Shown here in pieces: positions 2,929-46,558 of a DNA stretch of 64,000 nucleotides. The notes under the pieces are model-generated. The model had not been told where the DNA came from and did not search any database. It was given only the letters and a program-made list of their open reading frames with translations. Numbering within the stretch: the first letter of the stretch is position 1; every line of letters begins with the position of its first letter. The stretch is taken from assembly GCA_036567965.1 (NCBI GenBank), contig DATCTN010000031.1, positions 248,001 to 312,000 on the forward strand. Reading direction: 5' to 3'. Position numbers and translations under genes: made by a program. The DNA is from Candidatus Kryptoniota bacterium (GTDB lineage Bacteria; Bacteroidota; Ignavibacteria; Kryptoniales; JAKASW01).

Positions 2929-2938
2929 AGGAATTGCC

Positions 2939-3006: not shown

Positions 3007-3036
3007 TGATTAACCAGGCAGGTGCTGTGCAATAAT

Positions 3037-3606
3037 ATGACGCGGAGACTTGTCAGTTTCACTGAAGGATCATACTATCATATCTACAATCGCGGAGCCA
3101 GTAAAAACGAAATCTTTTTCTCGGACACCAATTATGATTTTGCAATGCGGAAGATTTCCTTTTATTCAAGCAAGACTTCCGTCAGAGTGGCAGCCTGTTG
3201 TCTGATGCCCAACCATTATCACCTCTTGCTTCACCAGAGTGGTGCAAAAGCAGCAGGTTACATGGCACAGATGGTTTTTAATAGTTACACGAAAGCTGTC
3301 AACCGCATGTACAATCGGACCGGTACCTTGTTCGAATCCCCGTTCAAGGCGACACTTGTGGATAAGATCGAGTACCTGTTACAACTTTCGAGATATATCC
3401 ACCTAAACCCGGTCTGTGCAGGACTCTGCGGAGATGTGGAAGACTGGCGGTATTCAAATTACTTGGAGTGTATCGGAAAAAGGAAGAAGTTCCCGTTCGA
3501 CCCGGATTTTATTGCAGACTACCTCGGTTCGCCGGTCGAATATGAAAAGTTTGTTCGTGAGTACGATTGGATTCAAATCAAGGACACCGAATCAATTGAA
3601 ATCTAA
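3037..3606 (+). CDS. REP-associated tyrosine transposase (RAYT, Y1_Tnp family)
   Basis: 189 aa from ATG 3037; an in-frame GTG at 3022 would add five residues. It begins GSYYHIYNRGASKN, carries the HUH-type metal motif in MPNHYHLLLHQ and has the downstream helix with LSRYIHLNPV expected to hold the catalytic Tyr. This is the full Y1 transposase core. RAYTs are single-strand nucleases that cut and join at palindromic REP sequences. Here the gene sits exactly between two identical 14-bp-stem hairpins (2939-3006 and 3610-3677), the second starting 4 nt after the stop. The unit separates a T9SS cargo gene from a lipoprotein gene that otherwise read in the same direction. It appears intact and may be, or recently have been, active. 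Confidence 0.92.
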   Translation: MTRRLVSFTEGSYYHIYNRGASKNEIFFSDTNYDFAMRKISFYSSKTSVRVAACCLMPNHYHLLLHQSGAKAAGYMAQMVFNSYTKAVNRMYNRTGTLFESPFKATLVDKIEYLLQLSRYIHLNPVCAGLCGDVEDWRYSNYLECIGKRKKFPFDPDFIADYLGSPVEYEKFVREYDWIQIKDTESIEI

Positions 3607-3609
3607 ACC

Positions 3610-3677
3610 ATTGCGACTCACCTCGAAGACCAGTCCCAACATTCTTACTTACCGACTTTTGAAAGGTGAGTCGCAAT
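3610..3677. repeat. Right REP-like hairpin of the RAYT element
   Basis: Same 14-bp arms as the left copy (3610-3623 and 3664-3677) with a 40-nt spacer of different sequence. The right arm contains AGGTGAG, which resembles a ribosome-binding site and lies 15 nt upstream of the best start codon of the following lipoprotein gene. The element's edge may therefore supply translation signals to its neighbour. Confidence 0.9.
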
Positions 3678-3685
3678 CGCTAAGC

Positions 3686-5377: not shown

Positions 5378-5429
5378 AATCCCATGTCGCAGTTTGTTTC
5401 CGATCTCCGGTGAGGAAAAAGTGCAGACC

Positions 5430-8288: not shown

Positions 8289-8767
8289 TGGTGGCTCAAA
8301 TGTCAAAGGTCAAAGGTCAAAGCCACAGATCAAACCTCAAAACCGGGTTAGTTGCGGTGTTTGAAGGTGATGGATTTCGGTACGGGGAGGAAAACAATAA
8401 AGGGACGATCCGGCCGGAAGAGAATTTGAAATATCGCTCTTACAGGTTTGCAGTTGATATAGTGAAATTCGTTGACTCGCCGGAGAGTCGAAGCGCACGG
8501 TTTTCCATTCGTGACCAATTGATCCGAGCGGCAACTTCCGTGGGGGCAAATATTTCAGAAGCTCGTGCCGCAAGTTCCAAACGTGATTTCATTAGATATT
8601 ATGAAATAGCGCTCAAGTCCTCTAATGAAACCAAGTTTTGGCTTTGTCTGCTAAGGGATGCCTTCGGAATCGACAAGTCAAGGATTAAGCCGTTGCTCGA
8701 CGAAGCAAAGGAATTATCAAATATGATTGCAGCAAGTGTGTTGACCATGAAGAAGAAAAGGCAGTAG
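8288..8767 (+). CDS. Four-helix-bundle protein (23S IVS-encoded / S23 family)
   Basis: The core from about 8408 reads RPEENLKYRSYRFAVDIVKF, then SIRDQLIRAATSVGANISEA and YYEIALKSSNETKFWL, ending in a Lys-rich tail. This is the roughly 115-residue four-helix-bundle family first seen in 23S rRNA intervening sequences; members form pentamers and most functions are unknown. The start is uncertain. ATG 8288 overlaps the receptor stop (TGATG) and ATG 8300 is also in frame, but both put a low-complexity TCAAAGG-repeat tract into protein. A GGGGAGG at 8384-8390 suggests the ancestral start lay just upstream of the core, where no ATG remains. The gene is bracketed by inverted TCAAAGGTCAAA repeats and looks like a small insertion between two receptor-locus genes. 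Confidence 0.8.
   Translation: MVAQMSKVKGQSHRSNLKTGLVAVFEGDGFRYGEENNKGTIRPEENLKYRSYRFAVDIVKFVDSPESRSARFSIRDQLIRAATSVGANISEARAASSKRDFIRYYEIALKSSNETKFWLCLLRDAFGIDKSRIKPLLDEAKELSNMIAASVLTMKKKRQ
8303..8321. repeat. Left TCAAAGG repeat tract flanking the four-helix-bundle gene
   Basis: TCAAAGGTCAAA occurs twice with a 5-base overlap (8303-8314 and 8310-8321), giving a 7-bp direct periodicity. The exact reverse complement is found at 8789-8800 on the other side of the gene. Confidence 0.75.
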
Positions 8768-8788
8768 CCGTATGACGGCAAGAACCAT

Positions 8789-8835
8789 TTTGACCTTTGA
8801 GTTGTTGTTTTGCGTTTTGAGATTTGACTCTTGAG
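8789..8835. repeat. Right TTTGACCTTTGA repeat tract flanking the four-helix-bundle gene
   Basis: TTTGACCTTTGA (8789-8800) is the exact inverse of the left repeat. It is followed by degenerate TTTTGNG/TTTGACTCTTGAG units up to the next start codon. The PorV-like gene's upstream region is therefore made of this repeat. Confidence 0.65.
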
Positions 8836-9816
8836 ATGAAAAAGATAGTTTTAACTCTTGTCCTCGAATTGTTTATCACGCAAGCCGGTGTGACACAACT
8901 CCTTCCTGTCCTCGGCGCCCAGCGCGTCGGCATTACCGCTGCCGATTTCCTGAAGATCGGAGTCGGAGCACGGGCCAATGCGATGGGCGAGAGCTTCGCT
9001 GCGGTGGACAATGACGCTTACGCGCTCTTCTACAACCCTGCCGGGATAACACAGTTCGACAACACCGAGGTAGCAATTTCCCACTCCACCTGGTTCGTCG
9101 GCCTTCAGCATGACTTCATCGGCGGGGTGTACCATCTCGACAGGCAGAACACGATCGGTATCTCCATAGTGTCGCTCCAATCTGACGACATGCCGGTGAC
9201 GACGGAATACCAGCCGTACGGCACAGGAGAATATTTCAAATACGGCGATCTCGCCATTGCGGCCACATACGCGCGAAAGATGACCGACAACTTCAGCTTC
9301 GGACTGAGCGTCAGGTACATCGACGAAACTCTCGCGCAGGTGAGCATGCGCGGCGTCCTAATCGATCTCGGAACGTATTACTGGACCGGGCTGGGGAGCA
9401 CAAGGTTTGCCGTCTCGGTCAGCAATTTCGGCGGCCAGCTCACACCATCGGGCAGTGTAACACTTCTTGACGGAACGACCGTTTCGAGTTTTCAGAGTTT
9501 CTCGCCGCCGACAATATTCAGAATCGGATTCGCGCTGGACCCGTACCAGGATGCTTCAAGTAAGCTCACCACATCGGTGCAGCTGAACCATCCCTCGGAC
9601 AACTCCGAAAATATTTCACTGGGTGCAGAATATTCGTACGTTTCGTCCTTCTTCCTCCGGGCGGGCTACAAGATCAACGTCGATGAAGAGAACTATTCGG
9701 TGGGCGCGGGCGTGAAGGTCGACGTGAAGTTCGCGCAGGTGTTCTTCGATTACGCGTTCACTCCTTACCAGCGACTCGGCGACGTTCACAGGTTTTCATT
9801 AAACTTGAGATTTTAA
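8836..9816 (+). CDS. PorV/PorQ-family outer membrane beta-barrel protein
   Basis: 326 aa from ATG 8836 (a TTG at 8824 is in frame but falls in the repeat tract). After the signal peptide it has the family signature FLKIGVGARANAMGESFAAV and DAYALFYNPAGI, followed by alternating strands to the terminal FSLNLRF. PorV-type proteins in T9SS organisms are outer-membrane barrels that shuttle or receive cargo bearing the C-terminal sorting domain. The gene ends 1 nt before the next start, so the two are co-translated. A second family member lies at 40017-41015 in the pectin island. Whether this one serves secretion or is a FadL-like transporter cannot be settled by sequence reading. Confidence 0.85.
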   Translation: MKKIVLTLVLELFITQAGVTQLLPVLGAQRVGITAADFLKIGVGARANAMGESFAAVDNDAYALFYNPAGITQFDNTEVAISHSTWFVGLQHDFIGGVYHLDRQNTIGISIVSLQSDDMPVTTEYQPYGTGEYFKYGDLAIAATYARKMTDNFSFGLSVRYIDETLAQVSMRGVLIDLGTYYWTGLGSTRFAVSVSNFGGQLTPSGSVTLLDGTTVSSFQSFSPPTIFRIGFALDPYQDASSKLTTSVQLNHPSDNSENISLGAEYSYVSSFFLRAGYKINVDEENYSVGAGVKVDVKFAQVFFDYAFTPYQRLGDVHRFSLNLRF

Positions 9817-9817
9817 G

Positions 9818-10966
9818 ATGAAGATTGGATTGTCCGTCCTGGCTGCTGCGGTACTCTTTGTCGGCTGCAACCAGAAATCTAACATTGTCGACCCTTCCAC
9901 GCTTCCCAAGGCGACAGGACAGGTTGTCAGTGACACGAATTATATCCAGATTCAACCTGCGTGGACTGCTTTCAGCAGTCCGAAGGATATCAAGATCGGG
10001 TACGATGACTTCCTCTATGTGACGGAACCTGGTAAGAACCGTGTGGCGATGGCGAACCTTGCCGGAACCATTCTCGGGTACTCGCAGTACATCGAACGCC
10101 CGGTTGCGGTCACAGAAGACAGGAGATTCAATCTGATAGTGGCCTGCGAATACGATACTATGGTCAATGGAAATGTAGTTACGGTCGCCGCTATAGCAAA
10201 GCTCAGATTGTTCAACCACAGCGACTCGATCTGGGCGGCGCCGGTGGAGATCGTCTATCATGAGAACCCGCGGCAGCAAATTACCCGCGACGGGTCCGGT
10301 AATTTAATCTCAGGACGAGAATTCACGGGTATCGCCGTTCTTCCCGATAACAGCTATTACGTCACACGTTCCGGAAAGAATAATTCGAGCTCTGTCGATC
10401 CCGACAACATGATTCTCCATTTCGACAAGAACGACGACGAGTACTCGAGCGACTACATCGACTTAGTACCGACTCTGGTATCGACAGGGACCGGCTTCGT
10501 GGCGATCAACCAGATAAGCAATATCACTACTTTCAACACGAGACAATACGGAACGGATTTCATCCTGACACAGACCGATCCGGCAAATGCGTTCAAGGTA
10601 AAATGGATAACTTTCAACCCGGGAAGCGAGCTCTTTGCTCCAAGCTGGGATTCGAGGTTCAGTCTCAACCCGACGACCTACTCGTCAGGGAAATTGCCCG
10701 ACATACTCTCCGGCATATTCGTCGCGCCCCAGGCGGTAATGGTCGACGATCGAAGCAATATATACATCATCGACAGCCAGCTTGACAGCCTCATGAAGTT
10801 CGACTTAAACGGCAGACTTCTCCGTGAATCATTCGGACCTGTCAAGTCGGGAAGCATGCCCCTTCTTCATCCATCCGGGATCACGTACTTCAATAAGATC
10901 ATTTATATAAGCGATACGGGCCACAACCGCGTACTTAGATACGAACTCTCGACGGATTTGAAATAG
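9818..10966 (+). CDS. NHL/beta-propeller lipoprotein
   Basis: 382 aa. MKIGLSVLAAAVLFVGC is a lipoprotein signal with the lipobox Cys at 17. The rest carries repeated propeller-blade phrases: SSPKDIKIGYDDFLYVTEPGK, PQAVMVDDRSNIYIIDS, LHPSGITYFNKIIYISDTGH. These are NHL-type repeats that build a six-bladed propeller for binding rather than catalysis. It follows the PorV-like gene by one base and closes the receptor locus. Probably an outer-membrane, surface- or periplasm-facing binding protein. Target unknown. Confidence 0.8.
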   Translation: MKIGLSVLAAAVLFVGCNQKSNIVDPSTLPKATGQVVSDTNYIQIQPAWTAFSSPKDIKIGYDDFLYVTEPGKNRVAMANLAGTILGYSQYIERPVAVTEDRRFNLIVACEYDTMVNGNVVTVAAIAKLRLFNHSDSIWAAPVEIVYHENPRQQITRDGSGNLISGREFTGIAVLPDNSYYVTRSGKNNSSSVDPDNMILHFDKNDDEYSSDYIDLVPTLVSTGTGFVAINQISNITTFNTRQYGTDFILTQTDPANAFKVKWITFNPGSELFAPSWDSRFSLNPTTYSSGKLPDILSGIFVAPQAVMVDDRSNIYIIDSQLDSLMKFDLNGRLLRESFGPVKSGSMPLLHPSGITYFNKIIYISDTGHNRVLRYELSTDLK

Positions 10967-11027: not shown

Positions 11028-12260
11028 CTAAAGCTTCACGACTTTCCCCATGAACAGAATCGCGCCGGAGTTCCGTTCATGGATGAGGAAGAGAAAAGGC
11101 CTGTCAACATTCATCGTAACACTCGACGGTTCGGCAATGGTAGCACCAATTCCAACCACCGTCACTGCCGCGGCTTCGGTGCCGGCTTCGTTGACTTTCA
11201 CGTAAGTGATATGGTCCACGTCGGTGACGTAAAGAGACAATGCCTTGCATATCCGTGAAAGATCCGCTTTCGACGGATCAAACGCGTCAATCATTCCCAT
11301 GGACTTGAGATCTGCGTTGAGTAACCGATTGTAATTTAATTCGAATCTCGGAAGTGAAATTTCTACCGGGTAAACGGAAAGTCGTGAGCCGATATTTTCG
11401 AAATCGGATTGATTGAAAGCGGTAGAGAGCTGCTCGATTGATATACCTGCTTTCGGCAGAATCACGACCATGCTGTACAGAGAATCTCCGTAAGGAAGTT
11501 CTACTGCCTGATATTCTTCGTTTTCGCAATACGGAAAGTCGGTTTGAGTGTGCATCAACTCGATCGTGTTCGTATTTCCGTCATCTGAATAGAATGGCGA
11601 ATTAGTTGTATTCGCTTCGTCGAATTTGTATTTCCAGCTTCCGTTGAAGTAGATAGCATTTATCAGATACATAACTTCATCACGGGGTATAGTGTCCAGC
11701 ACCTTCGAAATTTTATGGTTTGTCTTTGCATCGACCCAGCTGTTTATAGTGGTCACAGCATCGGGCGAGGCGAAATCAAGTGCGCTCACCTCGGCACTGA
11801 AGTATTTATTATTTACGTTCAGAAAATTTGCTTCGACCGGCACGCCTTTCTTGTACCAAATTGAATTCGCAATGTTCATCGTTACTTTAGGATCGAGATT
11901 GATCAGGTAATCGGACAAAGTTTCGTAGGAGCTATTTATATCGTCGTCCGAGACACCGTTCCATCCGAGCATCGAATCGATTTGCGATTTCGTGGTTCTG
12001 TCCGCGCCGTTGAGAACCATCCCGAGAGCATACGACACGCTGAGCGGGGAAATGAAGACGTTGTTTCCTGTTTCCGCCTTGTTCACGGTATTGAACAGCG
12101 AGAAACTGAAATGGTTCGACTGGTTAACATTTTGTTTCTCGAGTGGAGTCAATTCGCGGACGTTGATCTTGCCGCTTCCTGTGGGCGAATTGGAGCAGCC
12201 GACAAGCGCACACAACCCAAACAGTGCGACCGACAAAAGAGCAAACGTAGGTTTTCTCAT
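11028..12260 (-). CDS. Lipoprotein serpin (serine/cysteine protease inhibitor)
   Basis: 410 aa from the ATG at 12260, which has an excellent Shine-Dalgarno (AAGGAGG) 6 nt upstream. The N-terminus MRKPTFALLSVALFGLCALVGCSN is a lipoprotein signal. The serpin fold is full length: NVFISPLSVSYALGMVLNGA, MYLINAIYFNGSWKYKFD, LPYGDSLYSMVVILPK. The reactive-loop hinge EAGTEAAAVTV has the small residues at P12-P8 needed for loop insertion, followed by RPFLFLIHERNSGAILFMGKV. The loop then reads VGIGATIAEPSS, so P1 is probably a small residue near A-T-I, favouring elastase- or subtilisin-like targets (inference). It is convergent with the receptor locus and divergent from the NlpC/P60 gene. It could protect the surface from foreign or self-made proteases. 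Confidence 0.95.
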   Translation of the reverse strand: MRKPTFALLSVALFGLCALVGCSNSPTGSGKINVRELTPLEKQNVNQSNHFSFSLFNTVNKAETGNNVFISPLSVSYALGMVLNGADRTTKSQIDSMLGWNGVSDDDINSSYETLSDYLINLDPKVTMNIANSIWYKKGVPVEANFLNVNNKYFSAEVSALDFASPDAVTTINSWVDAKTNHKISKVLDTIPRDEVMYLINAIYFNGSWKYKFDEANTTNSPFYSDDGNTNTIELMHTQTDFPYCENEEYQAVELPYGDSLYSMVVILPKAGISIEQLSTAFNQSDFENIGSRLSVYPVEISLPRFELNYNRLLNADLKSMGMIDAFDPSKADLSRICKALSLYVTDVDHITYVKVNEAGTEAAAVTVVGIGATIAEPSSVTMNVDRPFLFLIHERNSGAILFMGKVVKL

Positions 12261-12353
12261 GCCCAACCTCCTTATCCTTCCCCCTAACATTAGATGCAGA
12301 ATCCTCAAAAGTCAATACAGTTCCGAATTGAGCTGATCGGATACATCCTCAAT

Positions 12354-32987: not shown

Positions 32988-34268
32988 ATGAAACTTGTTT
33001 CTTCATTCCTGATTCTCTTAGTTGTCGCGCTGACATGGGGGCTGCGGCAAGATCGATCCGGGGACGCCGACAAAAATTACTTGACTGCGGTGGTAACCGT
33101 TATAAACACATCGTCTCTCCAAAGGGTAGATCAATTATTGAAAATCAATCTCTCAGATTTCAAGACGCGTCATCCTGATTTCAACGAATACAATTTCTTC
33201 ATCACGTATCGTGGAAAAGAAATCGCGAGTCAGGTTGCGGATTCGAATCTCGACGGGAAAGCGGGCAGGATACTTATCGCAAGTTCTTTTGGCCCGAACG
33301 AAACGAAAAAATTCATTATTCGTTACTATCCCACCGGAAGAAAATTTAGAAATTATCCGCTCCAGACTCAGGCCCAGTTGGGAATGAAGGTAGATTATGA
33401 CAAAGTGGGGGGCTACTATACTCGCGGAGAATTCAGAACTGTGGATTCGACAACCGTACCGGCTGACCACTTCGCACACGATGCGCTTTACAGGATAGAA
33501 GGTCCGGGATGGGAATTGAAGTGGATCGTATACAGGTTTTATCTCGATTCAAGGAACAGGACCGACATATTCGGAAAAACGACAGGCGATATGGTACTGC
33601 AAAGGATCGGAGTAAACGATCTGGTGTCCGATAGCAAGGAGTCCTATTCAAGAATGCTCGATTGGGGAATGGACATATTCAAGGTCGGCGAATCGTTGGG
33701 AATAGGATCCGTCGCGATGTGGAACGATTCGGGTGCGGTAACTGTGAGCAATGTCTCCCGGGTGAGATGTTTCATCCGGGAGGACGGACCGATCCGTTCA
33801 GCAGTACGTACCGAGTATTCCGACTGGCATGTTGGGAGCAAGAGCTATGAACTCACGACGGTGTATTCTATATCTGCAGGAAGCAGGCTGACGAATGTTG
33901 CCCTGTCGCTGCACGGTAAAGATGCCGAGATGTGCACAGGTCTTGCCAGGCACGCCGACTGCATCTTCACGACATCCTCCGGCGACACCGGCAAGCAATG
34001 GTCATATATCGCGCTCTATGGAAAGCAGAGCCTTGCAGGAGATAATCTCGGCACTGCAATCTTCTACAAGCAAGCTGACGTTATCAGACTGACAGGCGAT
34101 TCACTTAGTCATATCGTTGTGTTGCGTGCCTCCGGCGGGAATCTGGAATATTACTTCGGAGCTGCATGGGAGAAAGAACCCGGAGGCATCAAGGACATCC
34201 GGACCTTTCGAGCTTTTTTAGAGAATGAGAGAGCAATTTTGGGGAAACCCGTGGAGATTCGTTATTGA
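32988..34268 (+). CDS. DUF4861-family protein
   Basis: 426 aa. A weak N-terminal hydrophobic segment (SSFLILLVVALTWGL) suggests export. The body has the DUF4861 pattern: VVTVINTSSLQRVDQLLKIN near the N-terminus, ASSFGPNETKKFIIRYYP, GPGWELKWIVYRFYLDSRNR, then a galactose-mutarotase-like beta supersandwich. The family recurs in pectin and other uronate-polysaccharide loci of Bacteroidota, but its biochemical role is not established; the fold suggests carbohydrate handling. It is the first gene after promoter site A, which fits a role in pectin breakdown. Confidence 0.8.
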   Translation: MKLVSSFLILLVVALTWGLRQDRSGDADKNYLTAVVTVINTSSLQRVDQLLKINLSDFKTRHPDFNEYNFFITYRGKEIASQVADSNLDGKAGRILIASSFGPNETKKFIIRYYPTGRKFRNYPLQTQAQLGMKVDYDKVGGYYTRGEFRTVDSTTVPADHFAHDALYRIEGPGWELKWIVYRFYLDSRNRTDIFGKTTGDMVLQRIGVNDLVSDSKESYSRMLDWGMDIFKVGESLGIGSVAMWNDSGAVTVSNVSRVRCFIREDGPIRSAVRTEYSDWHVGSKSYELTTVYSISAGSRLTNVALSLHGKDAEMCTGLARHADCIFTTSSGDTGKQWSYIALYGKQSLAGDNLGTAIFYKQADVIRLTGDSLSHIVVLRASGGNLEYYFGAAWEKEPGGIKDIRTFRAFLENERAILGKPVEIRY

Positions 34269-34356: not shown

Positions 34357-34413
34357 CGGATTCGCTCGGAAGAAATTTGAACACTCACATATAAGTATTT
34401 GCAGGAGACGGAA

Positions 34414-37400
34414 ATGAACCTGGCATCGTATCGGAAGATCATCGGATCGGTTTGTGCAATCTCGATGATCATGACATTGATCGCGGCATCTGCGAATGCT
34501 CAGTCAAGAAGCAAGATACAGGGCACCGTGAAAGACGCGAAGACGGGCGAGCCATTGATAGGCGTGAACGTGCTGGTTGTCGGGACAACTCTTGGCGCAG
34601 TGACCGATATCGACGGAAACTACTTTATCGTCAATGTCCCTGTCGGTACTTATGATGTCAGGGCTTCGATGGTTGGTTACAGTCCTACTCTTGTCAAGGA
34701 TGTGATCGTGGCGATCGAAAGGGTCGCGACGGTGAATTTCTCTATCGAGTCTGCCGAGATCAGAACGGGAGAAGTGGTGGTGATGGCCCAGCGCAACGAG
34801 ATGCACAAGGAAGTCTCTTCAACTCAGATGATTGCGACAAGCCAGGACATACAGACCGTTGCCGGCATCAGGGAAATCAATGCCTTTCTCGCGAAACTTC
34901 CAGGAGTGTCTACGGATGCGAACGGGTTCCTCACGATCCGGAGCGGAACAGCGGATCAGGTCGGAACACTTCTGAACGGGCTATCATATAACAATGCGGC
35001 CGTCGGCAATTCAGAGACGACCGTGCCGTTAAGTGCGATCGAACAAGTCTCCGTACTCTCGGGCGGATATAACGCGGAATACGGGAACTTCCGATCTGGA
35101 TTGATCAACATTACTACCAAGAGCGGCACGACTTCTGGCTACCACGGAACAATCACGCTGTCCAGCGACCAATCGCATATGCGCAGGTTCGGACAGTCTC
35201 TGTACGATCCGCATAATCCTGTGCTCGAACCTTACCTGGATCCGAGCGTCGCGTTCATCGGTACGGATTCCGCGTGGGCTAACGATCCATATGACAGGCA
35301 GCGGCACACCAGCTTCACCGGTTGGATAGCGCAGGCAAATACTTTTAATCAGGGCAAATCTCTTGCTAGCCAGGCAACTCCGCTCGAACTCTACCTCCTC
35401 ACGTCATGGATGACGATGTCTGTCCCAGACTACGCCGGCCTCGAAAAGGAAATGACATCCAATCCTGCCATAATGGGAGTCATGACCAGGACTCAGGCAG
35501 ACTCTCTCATAAATGCCACGCGTAAGGCAATTGCACAGCATGCTAATAAAGAAACCGGCAACGACTATGATCTTGACGCGGGTTTTGGTGGTCCGCTTCC
35601 CTTTTTCAGTCACGCGCTCGGCGACGCTACGTTCTACGTCTCCAACAGCACCACTCACCTCAACTACATCGAGCCTGTTACTCTCAACAGTGATTTTTCC
35701 TCAACTTCCCTCATTACTATCAAGTCGAACATGTCAAACGATATGACACTGACATTGAACGGACTGTGGAAAAGGGAAATCGGTGTGAGCCCAATCCGTC
35801 CAGCGAACGGTGATGCGCCGGACATCAGCGACAGGGGCGGACTTATGCAGCAGAATAACCTTAAGTATGTCCAGGACAATACAGGCATCATAGGCGACAA
35901 CTTCAATTATTTATACGACCAGGCTTACTTCCCGATACTCGATCAGACCACACTCGTCCTCGGAGCGACATTCAACCATCTGATAAGTAAGACCACTTAT
36001 TATGAGTTGACATTCAACCGTCTGCAGATCTCTGACTACACTCCGACGGGCGATAACCGGAACACCAGTTTGGTTCTAGAGCTCGGACCGTTCAATCTGG
36101 ATGAATCGCCATATGGTAAACTTCAGTGGGCCGGGAGTCATCAGGTCTACTCCCCGACCGACACCTTCAGATTTCCTTCTTACGATGATCCGCCCGGAAT
36201 CACGAACCTCAGATTCAGAAGCAAAGAGGGCGACCTCCACGACAACTCAAGAACGTACCAGTACCAGGCTAAGGGGGACATCTCGTCACAAATCGGTGAG
36301 CACAATTTTGTCAAAGGCGGGTTCGAGTATAACGAGATAACATTGGATCATGCCCTCTACGAATTATGGAACAACAATTCGTACAACACTTATGAATTCG
36401 ATTACGACGAGAAGCCAAGCCAGTCTGCTCTCTATCTCCAGGACCAGGTTAGCTACGGCGGTGTAGTGGCAAATCTGGGTCTCCGGTTCGACTATTATTA
36501 TGGTGGCGGTGGATTATGGCCGGGAAATGATTCCGCGGCTGCATTCTCGGCGCTCCTCCTTCCGCAGGACACAACCGGCCTGTACAGCTACCTCCTGACG
36601 GGGAACTCACAAATCTGGCAGATATGGGAAGACTCAAACAGAGTTCATCCGGGTTTTCTGCAGCCGATCAAGAACTTCTGGGCCCTGAGCCCTCGTCTCG
36701 GAGTCTCATTCCCGATTACCGATAGATCGAAGTTCTATTTCAACTACGGCTACTTCCGATCCAATCCGCCATACTATTCCATGTACGAAATAAAATACAG
36801 ATATACGAAATACGGTACTTACCAGATGTCAAATCCGAATCTGGAACCGCCTAAGACAATCTCTTACGAGTTGGGGGTTGAGTACAACTTCCTGGATAAT
36901 TATCTCATCCGCCTCTCCGGATATTATAAGGATGTGACGGGCGAAGAGGGCGATGTGAATTTCAAGAATAGTGCAGCGACAATCCAGTATTCGGGATTTG
37001 TGAACAACCAGTACGAGGACACGAAGGGCCTCGAAGTCGAGTTGTCAAAGAACGACAACTCATGGATCAACGGCTGGGTGAATTTTAATTACGCGCTCAA
37101 CAAAAAGGGGAACGCCGGACTGCAGAATATTACTGATCAGCCGCCGGTCGATGCCGATTACTATCAGGCTAATAGTTCGCCTGCCGTTCCTGTCCCCGCT
37201 CTTAACGCGGACATCACCCTCAGGTCTCCCGCAAATTGGGGACCTCAACCTGCCGGAATAGACATTCTCGGGAATTGGTCCATGACCGTCTTCGGCACAT
37301 GGAAAGCCGGAGACTACTTCACCTGGAATCCTCTGGGACAATACCCGCAGATACCGTATTACAATCTCGAGTGGCCGGACTATTACAGAGTCGATCTCAA

Positions 37401-37779
37401 ACTTACAAGAATGATCTCAATAGCCGGAATAACCGCGTCCGTTTACCTGGATGTTACGAATGTGCTCAACCTGAAGATAAATGAAATGGGCACGCTGAAT
37501 GCCTTCTCGAGCGTGTTGGCTTCGTCTACTTATTGGAATGACAACCAATCTGATGAAGCGCATTATCTTGCCTCGCTGCATCTGCCGATGTACAATTCTC
37601 CCCAATTCGATGCACTGAGACAACAGTATGCCGCACAAGGTTGGTATGTCCCGGGAAATGACAGAGTCGGCGACCTAAATTCTCCGAGCAAGCCATACAT
37701 CTACAGTCCGTCGTACGCAGATCTCTTCTTGTATGATCAGCCGAGGGATATATGGTTCGGAATCAAAGTGGATTTCTAA
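34414..37779 (+). CDS. TonB-dependent receptor of the pectin island
   Basis: 1121 aa from ATG 34414, with GGAG 6 nt upstream. The signal peptide ends ASANAQS. A CarboxypepD_reg-like domain (SKIQGTVKDAKTGEPLIGVN), the plug (FLTIRSGTADQVGTLLNGLS; VSVLSGGYNAEYGNFRSGLI) and a long barrel ending GIKVDF with a terminal Phe follow. It probably imports pectin or rhamnogalacturonan oligosaccharides, judged from its neighbours. It has the SusC-like N-terminal extension but no SusD gene nearby; the next genes are a PNPY secreted protein and a PorV-like protein. The start of the next gene overlaps or abuts its stop. Confidence 0.92.
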   Translation: MNLASYRKIIGSVCAISMIMTLIAASANAQSRSKIQGTVKDAKTGEPLIGVNVLVVGTTLGAVTDIDGNYFIVNVPVGTYDVRASMVGYSPTLVKDVIVAIERVATVNFSIESAEIRTGEVVVMAQRNEMHKEVSSTQMIATSQDIQTVAGIREINAFLAKLPGVSTDANGFLTIRSGTADQVGTLLNGLSYNNAAVGNSETTVPLSAIEQVSVLSGGYNAEYGNFRSGLINITTKSGTTSGYHGTITLSSDQSHMRRFGQSLYDPHNPVLEPYLDPSVAFIGTDSAWANDPYDRQRHTSFTGWIAQANTFNQGKSLASQATPLELYLLTSWMTMSVPDYAGLEKEMTSNPAIMGVMTRTQADSLINATRKAIAQHANKETGNDYDLDAGFGGPLPFFSHALGDATFYVSNSTTHLNYIEPVTLNSDFSSTSLITIKSNMSNDMTLTLNGLWKREIGVSPIRPANGDAPDISDRGGLMQQNNLKYVQDNTGIIGDNFNYLYDQAYFPILDQTTLVLGATFNHLISKTTYYELTFNRLQISDYTPTGDNRNTSLVLELGPFNLDESPYGKLQWAGSHQVYSPTDTFRFPSYDDPPGITNLRFRSKEGDLHDNSRTYQYQAKGDISSQIGEHNFVKGGFEYNEITLDHALYELWNNNSYNTYEFDYDEKPSQSALYLQDQVSYGGVVANLGLRFDYYYGGGGLWPGNDSAAAFSALLLPQDTTGLYSYLLTGNSQIWQIWEDSNRVHPGFLQPIKNFWALSPRLGVSFPITDRSKFYFNYGYFRSNPPYYSMYEIKYRYTKYGTYQMSNPNLEPPKTISYELGVEYNFLDNYLIRLSGYYKDVTGEEGDVNFKNSAATIQYSGFVNNQYEDTKGLEVELSKNDNSWINGWVNFNYALNKKGNAGLQNITDQPPVDADYYQANSSPAVPVPALNADITLRSPANWGPQPAGIDILGNWSMTVFGTWKAGDYFTWNPLGQYPQIPYYNLEWPDYYRVDLKLTRMISIAGITASVYLDVTNVLNLKINEMGTLNAFSSVLASSTYWNDNQSDEAHYLASLHLPMYNSPQFDALRQQYAAQGWYVPGNDRVGDLNSPSKPYIYSPSYADLFLYDQPRDIWFGIKVDF

Positions 37780-37802
37780 TCGTTCAACCAGCGGAGTCAG
37801 AA

Positions 37803-39995
37803 ATGGATTTTCATGCTAAGAGAAAGACGCGAGGAGCGAGAACTTCCTACGTTCTCGGTCTGGTACTGTCAATGCAGCTCGCGGGATTCGGAACCCTCTT
37901 CGCTCAGAGTCGCGAGTTGCAGACAACCAGCATCAGGCTGGCCCGAATATGGGCGGGCATGATCGCCAATGGCGGCTCCACAACTTTTAACCCGTCGGGA
38001 ACCAGCACCTTCTTCCCAAATGATTACGGCATCATAGCGGACATGTCGCAATACGCAGATGCGATTACAGGAGCCGGCGTATATCTGACCGCCGTTCATT
38101 GGCCTAATCACGCTAATCACGATTCCGTCGAAAGCGCTGCCGTGTACCAGTTTACAAACCAGTATCTTCAAAACGGGAGGGTGATTCGCGCACTTACAAA
38201 CTATCTGCGGTATCAGTATCCGCAGGAGACTATCAACAAGGTTCACACACCCACGGCGCTGTTCGGCACTTACAACCCCAGCTATCCCGGGTTTCGGGAC
38301 AGTACGTTTGATGAAATCGCGGAGGTTGTGGACTCTACAATATTTGGCGTGACCGTCGACAGGAAGATACTAGTTTGGTCGCAGACATTTAACAACGATT
38401 ACATAATAGCAGATCTTGTCTTCACGAACATTGGAAGCGATACTCTTGACAGTCTCTACATCAACCTGCAGGAGTCAGGCGGGAATTCGATCTTCTCGAA
38501 CGGATCGAATCCGGTTGGATCTGTGGACCCGACACTTTCGTGGCAACATTACTATGGCGGCAGGCCAGGAGACAGCCTGAGAGTGTTCTACGAATACAGC
38601 GCCGACGATCCAAGAGTTAGCGGAGACAACATGGGCGCACCGCAGGTCTCATCAAACGGTCGACTTATTAATCCCAACATGTCCTACTACGCTATCCTTC
38701 ACGCATCTGCTGCACCGTACGACAGCGGATCCCCGGATGCCGACGACCCTCTCCAGCCTAAAGTGACCTATATAGGAGTAACAAACAGAATTCCCTATAA
38801 CTCCGCAGACGATATTTATGGAAGCAAAAACTTCAGTGCTATCAGAGGGACTTATTCAGATCAATGGCCGATGCCGAGCGCAATCTCCGGCACACACCAT
38901 GGCTTGAATAATGACGAGCTCGGAACCAACGACTACACGAATTACATCGCGGGAGCTTTCCAATCAATATCCTATCGGACTTGTAGCTTCGGTCCCTACA
39001 CCTTTCTGCCCGGCAAGAAAATTCATATCGTAATTGCGAGCGGGTTCACGGGCATCGGATACCAGACCGGACAGCAAATTGGCAACCAGTGGCTGGACGG
39101 AACGCTTCAGGATCCGCCAAACACAGCGTCGATTCCCGAATGGAACGCAAGAACCGGACTCTTACCCGGTACTTTTCAATTCCCCTCCGGTGCAACCCAG
39201 GTAGATATGGCAAAGGATCGCTGGATTAGTCTCGGCATAGATTCAGTGATGCTGAGCGCGTGGAGGGCAAAATGGAACTACGAACACGATTACGCCATCC
39301 CACAAGCACCACCACCTCCTGCCACTGTGACTCTCACGACCACGAGCCTGGCAATCGAGATAGACTGGAGCGATCCACAGGCGGAAGCATTGTCGAATTT
39401 CGCGGGCTACAGAATCATGCGCAGGATCTCTAATTACGACACAGTCGAATACTCTCCCATCTATGATTCCGACTCGACAGATCTTTCTGCCGCTCATACG
39501 ACTTACGATTCGATCAAGTATTATGGAGCTCAGATTTATTATTACGTCCAATCGAAGGCGCGGATCGGGTACAATGATCCAAACGCCGATCCGACAACTC
39601 GCGGGAAAATCATGTACAGTGGCAGAAACCTGGATTACAACACTCGTTTTATTTCCCCCACGAATTTTCCGCAGAGCGACTTGTCTAAAATCCGAATCGT
39701 CCCGAATCCATACAACATCAGCGATCCGCTGATATATGATTCGAAACGCGGACTTGGTGTCAGCAGCGGTAGGGTACTTGTGTTTTACAATCTACCTCCG
39801 GTTTGCACGATCAAAATCTTCACTGAGAATGGTGACCTTGTGACTACCATTGACAAGAGCAACCCCCAGCAGGGGTCCTATCCATGGAACATGCTGACCT
39901 CAAGCCAGCAACTGCCGGCAAGCGGCGTTTACATTGCAGTCTTCCAGACCCCGGACGGCGCGACTTCTTACCAGAAATTCATCATCGTACGCTGA
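37803..39995 (+). CDS. Secreted PNPY-type protein, possible glycan-binding partner of the TonB receptor
   Basis: 730 aa from ATG 37803 (GGAG upstream), which gives a signal peptide ending GTLFAQS; the open frame begins earlier inside the receptor gene. The body begins TTSIRLARIWAGMIANGGST and contains a fibronectin-like segment near 510-600 (VTLTTTSLAIEIDWSDPQAE, FAGYRIMRR). The end is RIVPNPYNISD, VLVFYNLPPVCTIKIF, SGVYIAVFQ, KFIIVR, the same C-terminal style as the fragment at 1-468. It occupies the place a SusD-like lipoprotein would have in a classical locus. Extracellular by inference; no enzyme motif recognised. Confidence 0.78.
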   Translation: MDFHAKRKTRGARTSYVLGLVLSMQLAGFGTLFAQSRELQTTSIRLARIWAGMIANGGSTTFNPSGTSTFFPNDYGIIADMSQYADAITGAGVYLTAVHWPNHANHDSVESAAVYQFTNQYLQNGRVIRALTNYLRYQYPQETINKVHTPTALFGTYNPSYPGFRDSTFDEIAEVVDSTIFGVTVDRKILVWSQTFNNDYIIADLVFTNIGSDTLDSLYINLQESGGNSIFSNGSNPVGSVDPTLSWQHYYGGRPGDSLRVFYEYSADDPRVSGDNMGAPQVSSNGRLINPNMSYYAILHASAAPYDSGSPDADDPLQPKVTYIGVTNRIPYNSADDIYGSKNFSAIRGTYSDQWPMPSAISGTHHGLNNDELGTNDYTNYIAGAFQSISYRTCSFGPYTFLPGKKIHIVIASGFTGIGYQTGQQIGNQWLDGTLQDPPNTASIPEWNARTGLLPGTFQFPSGATQVDMAKDRWISLGIDSVMLSAWRAKWNYEHDYAIPQAPPPPATVTLTTTSLAIEIDWSDPQAEALSNFAGYRIMRRISNYDTVEYSPIYDSDSTDLSAAHTTYDSIKYYGAQIYYYVQSKARIGYNDPNADPTTRGKIMYSGRNLDYNTRFISPTNFPQSDLSKIRIVPNPYNISDPLIYDSKRGLGVSSGRVLVFYNLPPVCTIKIFTENGDLVTTIDKSNPQQGSYPWNMLTSSQQLPASGVYIAVFQTPDGATSYQKFIIVR

Positions 39996-40016
39996 TCGAA
40001 GATGAGGATGCCCAAA

Positions 40017-41015
40017 ATGAAACCGAGAACTTTTTTGATGATCACAATTCTCGCCTTTGCGCTCGGAAAAAATGCCGCAGCTCAAGTCGACCTTAACAAG
40101 GTGGCACAGAGCACGATGAACTTCCTGCTCGTCAGTGTCTCGCCTGTAGCAAGCAGCATGGGAGAGGCCTACTACGCAGTGGGGACGGGTGCGGATGCCA
40201 TCTTCTACAATCCGGCGGGAATGGCCGAGATGAACGGGGCCGACTTAAATGTCAGCCTCAACTATACACAGTGGATAGCCGACATCAATTACTACGCCGG
40301 CGCAGCGTCGTGGAACCTCAAGAACTATGGTGCCGTGGGCATCAGCTACCTTACAGTCGATTACGGTACCATAAATGGCACAAGCCTGAATCCACTCGGC
40401 GGATACATAGACAACGGACCGGTGCAGAATGTCGGCGCCTATTCGCTGGGACTCACTTATGCTAAATACATCAACACTCAGTTCCTGGCCGGCGGCAGCA
40501 TCCGATACGTGGGCCAAAGCCTGGGTCAAAACACTTTTTACGACGGTACCACATCGAATAACAGAATCGGAAAACTGGCTTTCGATCTGGGTGTCAAATA
40601 TCTTACGGGCTTCAAGGACTTCAGGTTCTCAATGGCGTACCGGAATTTCTCCTCGGACGCCAGATACATTTACCAATCCCAGGAACTTCCGGCTACTTTC
40701 ACACTCGGAACAGCCATCGACCTTTTGGATTTCTTCGACGAGAACCACGACAAGGGTAATTCCGCCACGCTGGCGGTCGACTATCTTCACTCGAATAATT
40801 ATTCCGAACGCATCAACATGGGACTGGAATTGAGATATCTGGGCATCGTCGCACTTCGCGGCGGCTATCAGACAAACCGCGATGTCCAATCGTGGTCCGC
40901 AGGAATCGGCCTGAATTCCGATGTGGCCGGCAACAACGTCGAGGTGAATTACTCCTTTTCGAAAATGGACCTGTTCAACAACGTCAACCGGTTCTCCGTT
41001 GACTTCTCTTTCTAG
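40017..41015 (+). CDS. PorV/PorQ-family outer membrane protein of the pectin island
   Basis: 332 aa from ATG 40017, with GAGG 9 nt upstream; ATGs at 40002 and 40008 are possible. The signal peptide ends KNAAAQVD. The family block is VSPVASSMGEAYYAV, DAIFYNPAGMAEM, then barrel strands to the terminal Phe in RFSVDFSF. Paralogue of the gene at 8836-9816, again placed in a TonB-receptor locus. It may receive T9SS cargo such as the PL9 enzyme, or form a hydrophobic-ligand channel. The repeated linkage with a receptor and a PNPY protein suggests a functional set. Confidence 0.85.
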   Translation: MKPRTFLMITILAFALGKNAAAQVDLNKVAQSTMNFLLVSVSPVASSMGEAYYAVGTGADAIFYNPAGMAEMNGADLNVSLNYTQWIADINYYAGAASWNLKNYGAVGISYLTVDYGTINGTSLNPLGGYIDNGPVQNVGAYSLGLTYAKYINTQFLAGGSIRYVGQSLGQNTFYDGTTSNNRIGKLAFDLGVKYLTGFKDFRFSMAYRNFSSDARYIYQSQELPATFTLGTAIDLLDFFDENHDKGNSATLAVDYLHSNNYSERINMGLELRYLGIVALRGGYQTNRDVQSWSAGIGLNSDVAGNNVEVNYSFSKMDLFNNVNRFSVDFSF

Positions 41016-41023
41016 AAGGACAA

Positions 41024-42280
41024 ATGCAGATTCGATTCTCTAAATATTTGATTCATCGTCTCCTCCTTATCTCCTTCTGTATCCCTCTGGCGGTCGCAGC
41101 GGCTGCCTCGCCTGACTCGACCGCCGGAGATTCTTTAAAAATAAATCTGGAGAAGGCGAAAGGAGATACGCCCTGGTGTGCCTGGATCGCTGACGCCCTG
41201 ATGAGCAGGTATCCTAAGTATGCGGTTTATGATACGTCGAACATAAAGTGGGACTACGATCAGGCGCTAGTTGAACATGCTCTCTGGAATGTTTGGAATA
41301 AAACAGGAGACCGCAGGTACCTGAACTATTTGAAGAGGAACATCGACTATTTCTTGACCCCCGATGGGAATTTGAAGACTTACAATTTCAACCAATTCAG
41401 ACTCGACGACTTGCTGCACGGGAGGACCTTGCTCGATCTGTACAAGTTGACAGGGGACCGAAAATACAAGAACGCTGTCGATACTCTGAGGAAGCAAATC
41501 GCAGAGCAGCCGCGCACACCGGAAGGTGGATTTTGGCACAAAGAAATTTACCCTGATCAAATGTGGCTCGACGGACTGTACATGGCCGAGCCATTCTATT
41601 CTGAATATGCCGAAGTATTCGATGAACATCGTGATTTCGACGACGTCGCCAGACAATTCATTCTTATGTCCAAGAATTCCCTCGATGCTGTTACCGGTCT
41701 GATATATCATGGCTGGGACTACAGCCGGAAACAAAAATGGTCTGATTCGACAACGGGCTGCTCGCGGGTTTTCTGGGGACGCGCGATGGGTTGGTATATC
41801 ATGGGACTTGTCGACGTTCTCGATTATTTTCCCAAAGATCATCCTGACCGGAGGAAACTTCTCACAATTCTACGCAATCTTTCGGAATCGATATGTAAGT
41901 TTCAGGATAATCGGACTCACCTCTGGTATCAGGTTGTGGATCAACCCTCAAGATCTGGAAATTATCCGGAAGCTTCGGCGTCCGCGATGTTTATGTACGC
42001 GTTCGCGAAGGGAGCGACAAAGGGCTACCTGCCTCGAAAATACTTTACAATATCGCTGGGTGTGTTCGACGGTCTTGTGTCGAACCTGATGAGACTTGAT
42101 TCGAGCGGACTACCGTCGCTTTCCAATGTCTGCACCGGCGCAGGACTCGGCGGCGACCCCTACAGAGATGGGAGTTATGAATATTATGTCAGCGTTCCGA
42201 AGAGTGATGACGATTTCAAAGGAGACGGCGCCTTTATACTGGGTGCTGTTGAGCTCGAGAAGGCGGGCTTGATAAAATAA
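41024..42280 (+). CDS. GH105/GH88-family unsaturated rhamnogalacturonyl (glucuronyl) hydrolase
   Basis: 418 aa, preceded by AGAAGGA. The signal peptide is LLLISFCIPLAVAAAA. The (alpha/alpha)6 barrel shows WDYDQALVEHALWNVW, FRLDDLLHGRTLLDLY, QMWLDGLYMAEPF with the conserved Asp, FWGRAMGWYIMG and GNYPEASASAMFMYAF. Enzymes of this family remove the unsaturated uronic acid from the ends of oligosaccharides made by pectate or rhamnogalacturonan lyases, by hydration of the double bond. Predicted periplasmic. It is the direct partner of the PL9 lyase at 57.8 kb. Confidence 0.92.
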   Translation: MQIRFSKYLIHRLLLISFCIPLAVAAAASPDSTAGDSLKINLEKAKGDTPWCAWIADALMSRYPKYAVYDTSNIKWDYDQALVEHALWNVWNKTGDRRYLNYLKRNIDYFLTPDGNLKTYNFNQFRLDDLLHGRTLLDLYKLTGDRKYKNAVDTLRKQIAEQPRTPEGGFWHKEIYPDQMWLDGLYMAEPFYSEYAEVFDEHRDFDDVARQFILMSKNSLDAVTGLIYHGWDYSRKQKWSDSTTGCSRVFWGRAMGWYIMGLVDVLDYFPKDHPDRRKLLTILRNLSESICKFQDNRTHLWYQVVDQPSRSGNYPEASASAMFMYAFAKGATKGYLPRKYFTISLGVFDGLVSNLMRLDSSGLPSLSNVCTGAGLGGDPYRDGSYEYYVSVPKSDDDFKGDGAFILGAVELEKAGLIK

Positions 42281-42319
42281 ATGCTGATTGCTGATACTGC
42301 CGAACGGCTGAGTTCAAAA

Positions 42320-43840
42320 ATGAATCACGCGAATAGATATCTTCTTCCAGCTCTAGTCCTCTCGATTCTCTCCGTCAGCTTCGTGCCTGGCGGACCCGTT
42401 GACGTGTTTCTTATCGGTGACTCCACGATGGCGGACAAGCCGCTTGCCGATTATCCCGAACGCGGATGGGGACAGATGCTTCCGATGTTCTTCAACGACA
42501 GCGTTACAGTGAGGAACTACGCGCACAACGGGAGAAGCACTCGAAGTTTCATAGACCGCGGCGAATGGGACGAAGTGTATAAGCAACTTCATCCCGGAAG
42601 CTACCTCTTCATACAATTCGGCCACAATGACGAAAAGAGATCAGATTCAACGAGATACACCGACCCTGAGACCAGCTTCCGCGGGAACCTCATCAGGTTT
42701 GTCGAGGGCGCACGCGAGAAGGGAGCGGTCCCCGTCCTCATAACACCGGTCAACAGGCGGGAGTATGATAAGAGCAACCATATAATTGAAACTCATCTCG
42801 AATATTCCCGCGCGGTACGCAGTCTTGCCACAGAGGAAAATGTTTTCCTTATTGACCTGGACAGTTCAAGTAAAGCCCTTTTCGATGCGGTTGGCCCCGA
42901 CTCTTCCAAGAAAATATTCCTGTCGGTTAGCAAAAACGAGTATAAGAGATTGCCTGACGGAAAGGAAGACAACACACATTTTCAACAGGGAGGCGCGATA
43001 CGAATCGCGAATCTCGTAGTTGACGCGATCAGGAAATCGGCCCTGCCGCTTTCACACGACATCCTTTCGCGGGATACGGTCAATTCGATAATTGGCGGAG
43101 GCGTTGATAAAGTGGTCGGATTGGATTGCTACCACAACAATGAATGGAAGACAGATAAAGATGGAAAGGAAATCAGATACCACTACATCTGGGAAGACGA
43201 AGAGAACTCGGGCTATTCTGAGCTTGGAGGAATAATAACAAACCTGAACGCGCGCCTGTCCGAACTCGCGACAGCTCCGTCCGCAGAACTGTTGCGGCAT
43301 TACAGCGTCTTCATTATCGTGGATCCCGATACCCCGTCGGAGACGAAGGATCCCAAATACATTGAACCCGACCAGGTCAAAACAATAACGAGCTGGGTCG
43401 AATCGGGAGGAGTCCTGTTACTGTTCGCGAACGACAAAGGAAACTGCGAGTTTTTCCATCTCAACCAACTTGCCGAACAATTCGGAATTCATTTCAATGA
43501 AGACAGCCGAAACGATGTGGTCGGCCAGGACTACGATACGGGAAAATTCGACAATCTTCCCGATCATCCGGTGTTCAGAGGAGTTCACAAAATATTTCTG
43601 AAGGAAATCAGTACGCTCACAGTTCAATCGCCTGCCACTCCTCTCCTGCGCGACAACGGAGATGTGATCATGGCGACCTCTCATGTGGGCAAAGGCCTGG
43701 TATTTGCCGTGGGCGATCCATGGCTTTATAACGAGTATCTGGACAATAAGAAACTCCCGGTCGGATTCGAGAACTACAAAGCCGCGAGGAGTCTTTTCCG
43801 GTTCCTTATTGAAAGATCGATGTCTATAAAAGAAAATTAG
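42320..43840 (+). CDS. CE12-like rhamnogalacturonan acetylesterase (SGNH) fused to a GATase-like domain
   Basis: 506 aa from ATG 42320, which gives a signal peptide; ATG 42281, abutting the GH105 stop, is the alternative. Residues about 27-245 are an SGNH hydrolase: Ser35 in FLIGDSTMAD, the Gly/Asn block YAHNGRSTRSF, Asn103 in FGHNDEKR, and the DNTHF motif supplying Asp and His. That matches CE12 enzymes that de-acetylate rhamnogalacturonan. Residues about 260-506 are an unrelated Rossmann-like domain: YSVFIIVDPDTPSETKD, TSWVESGGVLLLFAND and GKGLVFAVGDPWLYN, like DUF4350/GATase1-like proteins. That pairing is unusual. A role as binding or oligomerisation module is a guess. Confidence 0.85.
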   Translation: MNHANRYLLPALVLSILSVSFVPGGPVDVFLIGDSTMADKPLADYPERGWGQMLPMFFNDSVTVRNYAHNGRSTRSFIDRGEWDEVYKQLHPGSYLFIQFGHNDEKRSDSTRYTDPETSFRGNLIRFVEGAREKGAVPVLITPVNRREYDKSNHIIETHLEYSRAVRSLATEENVFLIDLDSSSKALFDAVGPDSSKKIFLSVSKNEYKRLPDGKEDNTHFQQGGAIRIANLVVDAIRKSALPLSHDILSRDTVNSIIGGGVDKVVGLDCYHNNEWKTDKDGKEIRYHYIWEDEENSGYSELGGIITNLNARLSELATAPSAELLRHYSVFIIVDPDTPSETKDPKYIEPDQVKTITSWVESGGVLLLFANDKGNCEFFHLNQLAEQFGIHFNEDSRNDVVGQDYDTGKFDNLPDHPVFRGVHKIFLKEISTLTVQSPATPLLRDNGDVIMATSHVGKGLVFAVGDPWLYNEYLDNKKLPVGFENYKAARSLFRFLIERSMSIKEN

Positions 43841-45496: not shown

Positions 45497-46558
45497 TTGA
45501 ATAAGCGGCAACAGGTTACTCTGGACGACATTGCAAAGAGGCTGAACGTTTCCAAGGTGACAGTGTCCAAGGCACTCAGAGGACATCCCGATATTTCAAG
45601 GGAAACCACGAGACGCGTCAAGAAAATCGCCGAGGAGCTTGGTTATTCACCGAACTATATGGCGAGAAACCTCTCCTCAAAACGGACTAACATGATCGGC
45701 GTGGTCGTTCCGAAGATCGCGCACTTCTTCTTCAGCGCGCTGATCGAATCGATTTACGACACGGCTTTCCACAACAACTACGAGATAGCTCTGATGGTCT
45801 CACAGGAAAATGTTGAACGCGAGAGGAAGCACATAGAAACACTTCTCGCCATGAGAGTGGACGGTCTGATAATCTCAGTCACTGAACATACGCGCACGAG
45901 TGCTGCGATCGAAAAGGCAAGGGACCTCAGCGTACCCGTGGTATTCATGGACAGGGTTCTCGAAATCCCCGGCACGAGTAAAGTGACCGTGGACGACCGC
46001 GGAGGGGCGTCGAACGCCATCGAGCTCGCCATACAGGCAGGGTACAAAAAGATCGGTCACCTCGCAGGCTACCAGGACATAAACATCGGGAGGAAAAGGT
46101 ATGAAGGATTTGTCGACGCAATGAAAAAGCATGACCTTCCCATAAATCCCGATTGGATAGTTCACGGCGGATTCGGTGAAGACGACGGCTACAGGGGATT
46201 CAAGCAGATCCTTCAGAACAAGAACCTGCCCGAATTCATTTTTGCAGTGACCTATCCCGTCGCGCTCGGCATGTACGCGGCTGCAGAGGAAGCGGGACTC
46301 AGAATACCGGAGGATGTCGACGTCATTTGTTTCGGCACAAGCGGATTCCACCGGTTCATAAAACCCTCCTTGACTTATGTCGATCAGCCTACCGATGTTC
46401 TCGGAAGGACATCGGTTGAGCTTATGCTGGAACATCTCAAGGCCGTCGATGAACATGAGCCGAAGAATATTGAAGTCCCGACCAGAATTGTCCAGCGAGA
46501 GACCTGCGTCAGGCGCGAACCGAACCGGAAACCCGAACTTATCAAAAACCACAACTAG
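45497..46558 (+). CDS. LacI-family transcriptional regulator of the pectin island
   Basis: 353 aa from TTG 45497, with a strong GAGAGGAGA upstream. The N-terminal helix-turn-helix is VTLDDIAKRLNVSKVTVSKA with hinge YSPNYMARNL. A periplasmic-binding-like effector domain follows (MIGVVVPKIAHFFFSALIES; VDGLIISVTEH; YKKIGHLAGYQDI; DVDVICFG). The effector is probably a uronate or unsaturated sugar from pectin, inferred from location. It sits between the two halves of the island, each led by a promoter with the same candidate operator. I see no copy of that operator at its own 210-bp upstream region. Confidence 0.93.
   Translation: MNKRQQVTLDDIAKRLNVSKVTVSKALRGHPDISRETTRRVKKIAEELGYSPNYMARNLSSKRTNMIGVVVPKIAHFFFSALIESIYDTAFHNNYEIALMVSQENVERERKHIETLLAMRVDGLIISVTEHTRTSAAIEKARDLSVPVVFMDRVLEIPGTSKVTVDDRGGASNAIELAIQAGYKKIGHLAGYQDINIGRKRYEGFVDAMKKHDLPINPDWIVHGGFGEDDGYRGFKQILQNKNLPEFIFAVTYPVALGMYAAAEEAGLRIPEDVDVICFGTSGFHRFIKPSLTYVDQPTDVLGRTSVELMLEHLKAVDEHEPKNIEVPTRIVQRETCVRREPNRKPELIKNHN

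Follow-up and report, generated by a model that had tools for sequence, protein, structure and literature searches.

Organization of the locus

The window analyzed here, a stretch of 64,000 nt (positions 248001–312000 of contig DATCTN010000031.1) from the 4.1-Mb genome of a Candidatus Kryptoniota bacterium, contains a pectin island at 33–61 kb in which three successive genes on the same strand encode a TonB-dependent receptor (T), a secreted protein with a PNPY motif (N; P0002) and an outer-membrane barrel related to PorV (V), together called the trio:

34414–37779, + strand: TonB-dependent receptor with a SusC-like N-terminal extension (T); PF13715, PF07715, PF00593
37803–39995, + strand: PNPY protein (N); sequence, alignments, AlphaFold2 model, fold comparison, weak PorZ and TIGR04183 tail matches
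40002–41015, + strand: PorV/PorQ-family outer-membrane barrel (V); NF033709, structural match to PorV (8gl6_F/6h3i_F)

The open reading frame (ORF) of the receptor opens with a TTG at 34399, with a likely start at the ATG at 34414. Its product combines an N-terminal CarbopepD_reg_2 extension (PF13715, 9.7e-19) with a plug (PF07715, 1.1e-8) and a barrel (PF00593, 1.3e-17), one of 28 plug domains in the genome. The SusC model TIGR04056 gives 57.6 bits against a cut-off of 368.25, placing the receptor outside the SusC/RagA family. The N ORF opens at 37752 and ends at 39995, encoding 747 amino acids of a secreted protein with a VPNPY tail; the alignment indicates that translation likely starts at Met18 (37803), which is nearly invariant among relatives. 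An earlier sequence-only reading had described such a receptor, followed by a PNPY secreted protein and a PorV/PorQ-like protein, and all three were found where it had placed them.

Conservation of the trio

In the neighborhoods of 40 PNPY matches in relatives, a receptor gene lies directly upstream of nearly every full PNPY protein, and a PorV-like gene usually lies directly downstream. To avoid selecting only favorable cases, we took every PorV-family, plug-domain and PNPY match from the genome under study and from three single-contig chromosomes of other phyla, two from Neomarinimicrobiota and one from Latescibacteria. The same-strand order T, N, V was found for 7 of 8, 6 of 10, 6 of 9 and 21 of 21 PNPY proteins in the four genomes (40/48 in total), counted on a PNPY list that was merged by hand from fragments and relies on a profile built from trio members. 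When the PorV genes were shifted circularly along the three single-contig chromosomes, the mean expectation was 0.015–0.025 PNPY–PorV adjacencies; co-occurrence, which the sequence-only reading had proposed to count, is thus far above background (40 of 48 PNPY genes in trios versus about 0.02 PNPY–PorV neighbors by chance). The named loci, 75 in all, come from KSB1, Calditrichota, Neomarinimicrobiota, Latescibacterota, Ignavibacteria and others; in these, the receptor was directly upstream of N in all 82 testable cases, and a PorV-like gene was found within two genes downstream of N in 72 of 88. Among the Neomarinimicrobiota exceptions, either a gene of about 337 amino acids intervenes, or a single PorV-like gene is placed between two receptor–PNPY pairs. 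The intervening gene, seen between the PNPY and PorV-like genes at L139:4565-5575, L132:4558-5574 and L136:11741-12757, was considered as a missed PorV and rejected, as it has no NCBIfam match.

Across 69 trios, the distances among T, among N and among V proteins correlate pairwise with r of 0.93–0.97, the T–N value being the highest (0.966), and shared species history adds to this correlation. No natural fusions among the three trio proteins were found. The suggestion that the set is a functional unit is strongly supported: several phyla keep the gene order, genomes carry more than one copy, the three proteins diverge in parallel, and the tail class, as described below, is almost confined to genes next to a receptor or PorV-like gene. 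A second PNPY subfamily of more than 1000 amino acids likewise lies between receptor and PorV-like genes (L062:6942-10085, L063:6739-10050, L070:9463-13581 and L071:9747-14075), with no Pfam match in the two members scanned.

Predicted structure of the PNPY protein

A Pfam scan of N returned no family above cut-off. The AlphaFold2 model, computed from 70 relatives, has a mean pLDDT of 87.9 and a pTM of 0.85, and predicts, after a signal peptide, a beta-supersandwich (residues ~51–516), an fn3-like domain (~520–640) with profile matches to titin fn3 domains, and a C-terminal domain (~645–747) resembling those of the type IX secretion system (T9SS), with the PNPY motif at residues 651–654. Residues ~51–516 match the N-terminal beta-supersandwich of the glycoside hydrolase TxGH116, of cellodextrin and cellobiose phosphorylases (GH94) and of GH65 with Z scores of 14–16.6 over 220–285 residues, the best matches being TxGH116 and cellodextrin phosphorylase (Z ~16.5 over 260–285 residues); Foldseek gives E 2e-5. 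These values are well above the Z of 7–8 that is typical of models without relatives. In contrast to the GH94, GH65 and GH116 enzymes, with which it shares this N-terminal domain, the modeled PNPY protein has no catalytic (alpha/alpha)6 barrel, and past residue 516 it continues into the fn3 domain and the T9SS-like beta tail. Because the catalytic barrel is missing from the model, we rejected N as a sugar enzyme.

Several supersandwich positions of P0002 (187, 226, 277, 292, 317 and 331–332) are occupied by Asp, Asn, Arg or His and are invariant or nearly so across N proteins of differing contexts. The alignment suggests that these residues may form a shared site, either metal-binding or structural.

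The signal peptide of P0002 ends in ...FAQ without a lipobox, and a lipobox is absent from 123 of 126 N proteins, the three flagged being loose pattern matches. Compared with the 7-stranded beta-sandwich of type A CTDs (C-terminal domains), the last 100 residues are predicted to form strands at 676–679, 685–691, 696–702, 710–712, 725–732 and 738–745, with a low-confidence loop at 653–671. PF18962 was not reported for P0002. The tail scored 20.3 bits in a profile comparison with PorZ, and E 0.0018 to the C-terminal domain (CTD) of the PorZ structure sequence. Lys742, six residues from the end, is invariant in 70 aligned sequences and corresponds to the almost invariant lysine near the C terminus of type A CTDs, which contacts PorV (PMC10994853). 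In 99 trio members the PNPY-type tail reaches 89 bits or more. The other tails of the same loci have a median near 24 bits and stay below about 55 bits with few exceptions, namely L069_2 and the PNPY protein N1 of the cluster at 1–9.8 kb described below. The last residue is mostly Arg in trio tails and Lys in the canonical tails looked at. The PNPY tails are a separate class, nearly all of whose members have a receptor or PorV-like gene next to them.

The barrel and its proposed relation to type IX secretion

V reaches 155.1 bits with NF033709, the PorV/PorQ family model (cut-off 90), and 45 bits with NF033710, the equivalog model for PorV proper (cut-off 250), for which the genome has a better candidate elsewhere (C18:9521, 288.5 bits with the family model). 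The V model (pLDDT 90.1) ranks PorV of T9SS complexes first (8gl6_F/6h3i_F, Z 33), both with and without a bound CTD, followed by FadL/TodX (Z 29) and Bacteroidota BAM-complex barrels (Z 25). FadL/TodX being the next-best structural match, and one Latescibacteria V showing a weak match to PF03349, V could be a channel of that type for hydrophobic or aromatic cell-wall products, with the PNPY protein an unrelated secreted protein. We consider this very improbable, since PorV leads not only in structure but far more clearly in sequence (family profile E 3e-21 to PorV 6h3i_F versus 9e-4 to FadL/TodX), and the V gene follows a gene with a PNPY-type tail across different substrate contexts.

SprA is encoded in the genome (937 bits) and in 11 of 11 further genomes (12/12 in total). 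On leaving the SprA translocon, T9SS substrates are bound to a carrier barrel. For type A substrates this is PorV, which acts as a general carrier, whereas every type B substrate has a carrier of its own and remains attached to it at the surface (PMC12635249). Dedicated anchoring carriers of this kind are a precedent for the pairing of one tail with one barrel; by analogy, N and V look like a type-A-like tail accompanied by a PorV-type carrier of its own. The trio resembles type A export in the fold and family of V, the CTD-like tail of N with its invariant C-terminal lysine and the presence of SprA; it differs in having an adjacent PorV-family gene for each trio tail instead of the one general PorV described for type A, and in a distinct tail class that scores under the type A cut-off and ends mostly in Arg rather than Lys. 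As in SprB–SprF and other type B pairs, the substrate gene adjoins that of its own outer-membrane barrel, to which the product is proposed to stay bound as an anchor, while the trio departs from these pairs in its type A/PorZ-like tail, its PorV-family barrel and the inclusion of a TonB receptor.

This likeness of N and V to a CTD substrate and carrier such as SprB–SprF, together with the canonical T9SS tails on several other genes of the island, would also fit a unit centered on secretion, in which N and V are a dedicated cargo–carrier pair (an adhesin or a surface scaffold that keeps the polysaccharide or the secreted enzymes on the cell) and the receptor imports the products without touching N, itself a surface glycan-binding protein and not a lid or transport partner. 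We rate this as unlikely, if still a serious contender, given that the receptor is the most constant neighbor of N, being directly upstream in 82/82 cases, and that T, N and V diverge together with the closest correlation between T and N.

Absence of SusD and comparison with SusCD

A search of the whole genome with the SusD-family profiles PF07980 and PF14322 gave nothing at E <= 0.001, which agrees with the earlier claim that the receptor lacks a SusD and leaves the profile search, named beforehand as a possible refutation, without a homologue. The Latescibacteria chromosome has 21 trios versus a single SusD-family match (E 6e-8, in a frame with a stop). Relatives contain a few SusD-like genes; the two examined (G062, G063) adjoin their own receptor and have no PNPY or PorV gene beside them. 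With receptor–SusD pairs elsewhere in some trio-bearing genomes, both systems therefore coexist.

Like the SusCD/RagAB systems of Bacteroidota polysaccharide utilization loci, the trio has a TonB receptor with an N-terminal CarbopepD_reg extension, paired with the gene of a surface-directed partner inside a polysaccharide island. It differs from them in that the partner is a predicted beta-supersandwich with fn3 domain and T9SS-like tail rather than a SusD fold, that this partner is not a lipoprotein, that a third gene encodes a PorV-family barrel and that the receptor is far under the SusC cut-off. A further likeness concerns the non-pectin trios (loci L112-L146, e.g. L052:7388-8644), downstream of which there is often a gene for a TIG-domain protein (about 420 amino acids), reminiscent of surface glycan-binding proteins and with a lipobox in the one checked. 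This protein is possibly a surface glycan-binding fourth member.

Genomic context and possible substrates

The remaining features of the pectin island surround the trio on the same strand:

32988–34268, + strand: DUF4861/BT3233-family polysaccharide utilization protein; PF16153 6e-83, NF058564 under cut-off
41024–42280, + strand: GH88/GH105-type unsaturated glucuronyl/galacturonyl hydrolase; PF07470 7.8e-105
42281–43840, + strand: GDSL esterase-type protein with a DUF4350-like part; PF13472
43874–45286, + strand: glucuronate/galacturonate isomerase UxaC; PF02614 6.7e-88
45497–46558, + strand: LacI-family regulator; PF00356, PF00532
47079–48356, + strand: pectinesterase; PF01095
54621–56297 and 56342–57805, + strand: two GH28 polygalacturonase-type genes; PF00295
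57839–61201, + strand: Pel9A-like pectate lyase with a canonical T9SS tail; PF22842, PF18962

Only 8 bp separate V from the GH88 gene, and canonical T9SS tails occur on several further gene products of the island. No palindromic operator common to the pectin island or to the genus orthologues was found.

Pectin-related families (GH88, GH43, GH28, pectinesterase, pectate lyases, UxaC and KduI) are found near N proteins of the P0002 clade, including loci from KSB1 and Neomarinimicrobiota, and are not among the commonest families near distant N proteins. Distant trios adjoin genes for TIG-domain proteins and for further T9SS proteins, with GHL10, GH106, GH18, sulfatase or sugar-ABC-transporter-like genes as occasional neighbors. 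In view of these varied neighbors, the trio is probably not tied to a single substrate, and perhaps not always to glycans. For the locus studied here, the sugar-enzyme fold of N combined with the pectin neighborhood of its close relatives in several lineages points to the capture of oligogalacturonides, and makes capture and import of oligosaccharides by the trio plausible.

The pectin setting also bears on whether the receptor-like barrel might work in the opposite direction, helping to export the PNPY protein or to insert it at the surface, so that the trio would be an export device. Myxococcus Oar, which has an N-terminal CarboxypepD_reg domain, aids the export of PopC. Oar and PopC are listed in PMC11658791. 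The trio receptors have an N-terminal domain of this kind and are strictly paired one-to-one with N, which speaks for such a device. We nevertheless regard export by the receptor as improbable: the N tail is T9SS-like and SprA is present, the receptor has the plug and barrel of an ordinary importer, and the genes sit in a context of pectin degradation, with GH88 immediately downstream.

A separate six-gene cluster

According to the sequence-only reading, the same three families recur at 1–9.8 kb, a repetition that it took to suggest a functional unit. The families are indeed present:

1–468, + strand: C-terminal end of the 691-amino-acid PNPY protein N1, which begins upstream of the window (complete in L031)
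5394–8288, + strand: TonB receptor; domain scan, synteny
8824–9816, + strand: PorV-family barrel; NF033709 223 bits, synteny

What had been taken for a PNPY fragment is thus the end of a complete protein. The arrangement differs from that of the trio: window 1–10966 together with L031 comprises six genes in the order N1, a T9SS-tail protein (694), a lipoprotein-like gene (3416, start likely further in), the receptor (5394), the PorV-like gene (8824) and an NHL gene (9818). This order is kept in most of the relatives checked from the genus, order and class, each genome having a single high-scoring N1, with identities of 75–83% in the genus, about 60% in the order and 48% in another family. Since the PNPY gene comes first, two other genes lie between it and the receptor and synteny delineates a single-copy six-gene cluster, we rejected this set as a second copy of the trio or a second glycan unit. 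No CAZyme neighbors of the cluster were found among the genes scanned. The cluster resembles a core envelope system having components in common with the glycan trio.

The cluster contains two insertions, an IS200-like transposase (PF01797) at window 3022–3606 and a 23S rRNA intervening-sequence protein (PF05635) at 8174–8767; neither was seen at the corresponding position of L147 or L148. The window also contains a full-length serpin gene at 11028–12308 on the − strand (PF00079, 3.5e-110). Serpin genes are uncommon among bacteria.

Proposed mechanism of oligosaccharide uptake

The best explanation of the trio, which we hold with moderate confidence, is a TonB-dependent oligosaccharide importer in which a T9SS-exported surface partner, held by its own PorV, replaces the SusD lipoprotein. 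It draws on the presence, order and co-divergence of the genes, the predicted folds, the lack of a SusD match, the occurrence of SprA and the pectin context. In this importer, T would take up large glycan fragments, here oligogalacturonides from pectin, and the task of SusD in the SusCD system would be carried out by the unrelated PNPY protein. The latter would leave the cytoplasm with an ordinary signal peptide, be exported by the T9SS via its C-terminal domain and then stay at the cell surface, stably bound to the adjacently encoded PorV-family barrel and having no lipid anchor. Its N-terminal beta-supersandwich would capture an oligosaccharide and, through contact with the adjoining receptor, pass it on or close it into the receptor for import. 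The trio would thereby probably replace the SusC/SusD pair for the uptake of plant sugars such as pectin fragments.

Several observations weigh against this explanation. The beta-supersandwich is also present in domains that do not bind sugar, and a common fold proves no function. The N tail scores 19.7 bits with TIGR04183, the model for the T9SS type A tail, under the curated cut-off of 23, and the presence of SprA is weak evidence because SprA is general in these lineages. In the named-locus sample, 16 of 88 N genes, mostly in Neomarinimicrobiota tandems, have no nearby PorV-like gene, and some trios stand beside non-glycan genes, such as the efflux-type genes at L062.

Implications for uncultured polysaccharide degraders

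We found no earlier description of the trio in the literature, as covered by open-access papers. In the Latescibacteria genome paper, sugars were proposed to enter via non-specific porins, and TonB receptors were assigned to B12 and iron (PMC4454575). More broadly, TonB-dependent glycan uptake could have in the trio a second architecture, independent of the first, that occurs in several phyla of the Fibrobacteres-Chlorobi-Bacteroidetes superphylum and is more numerous than SusCD where counts were made. In it, the T9SS would deliver a sugar-enzyme-like surface domain, and a PorV-family carrier dedicated to this domain would hold it; we put this forward tentatively, as a proposal that falls slightly short of an even chance. 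If true, PorV-type carriers of the T9SS could be specific for their cargo, which would be a new use of such carriers in this secretion system. Several abundant uncultured phyla degrade polysaccharides, with few or no SusD genes in those examined. A recurring receptor–PNPY–PorV operon would give sugars a specific entry route in such phyla, and the trio would serve as a genomic marker of glycan loci where SusD-based searches find nothing.

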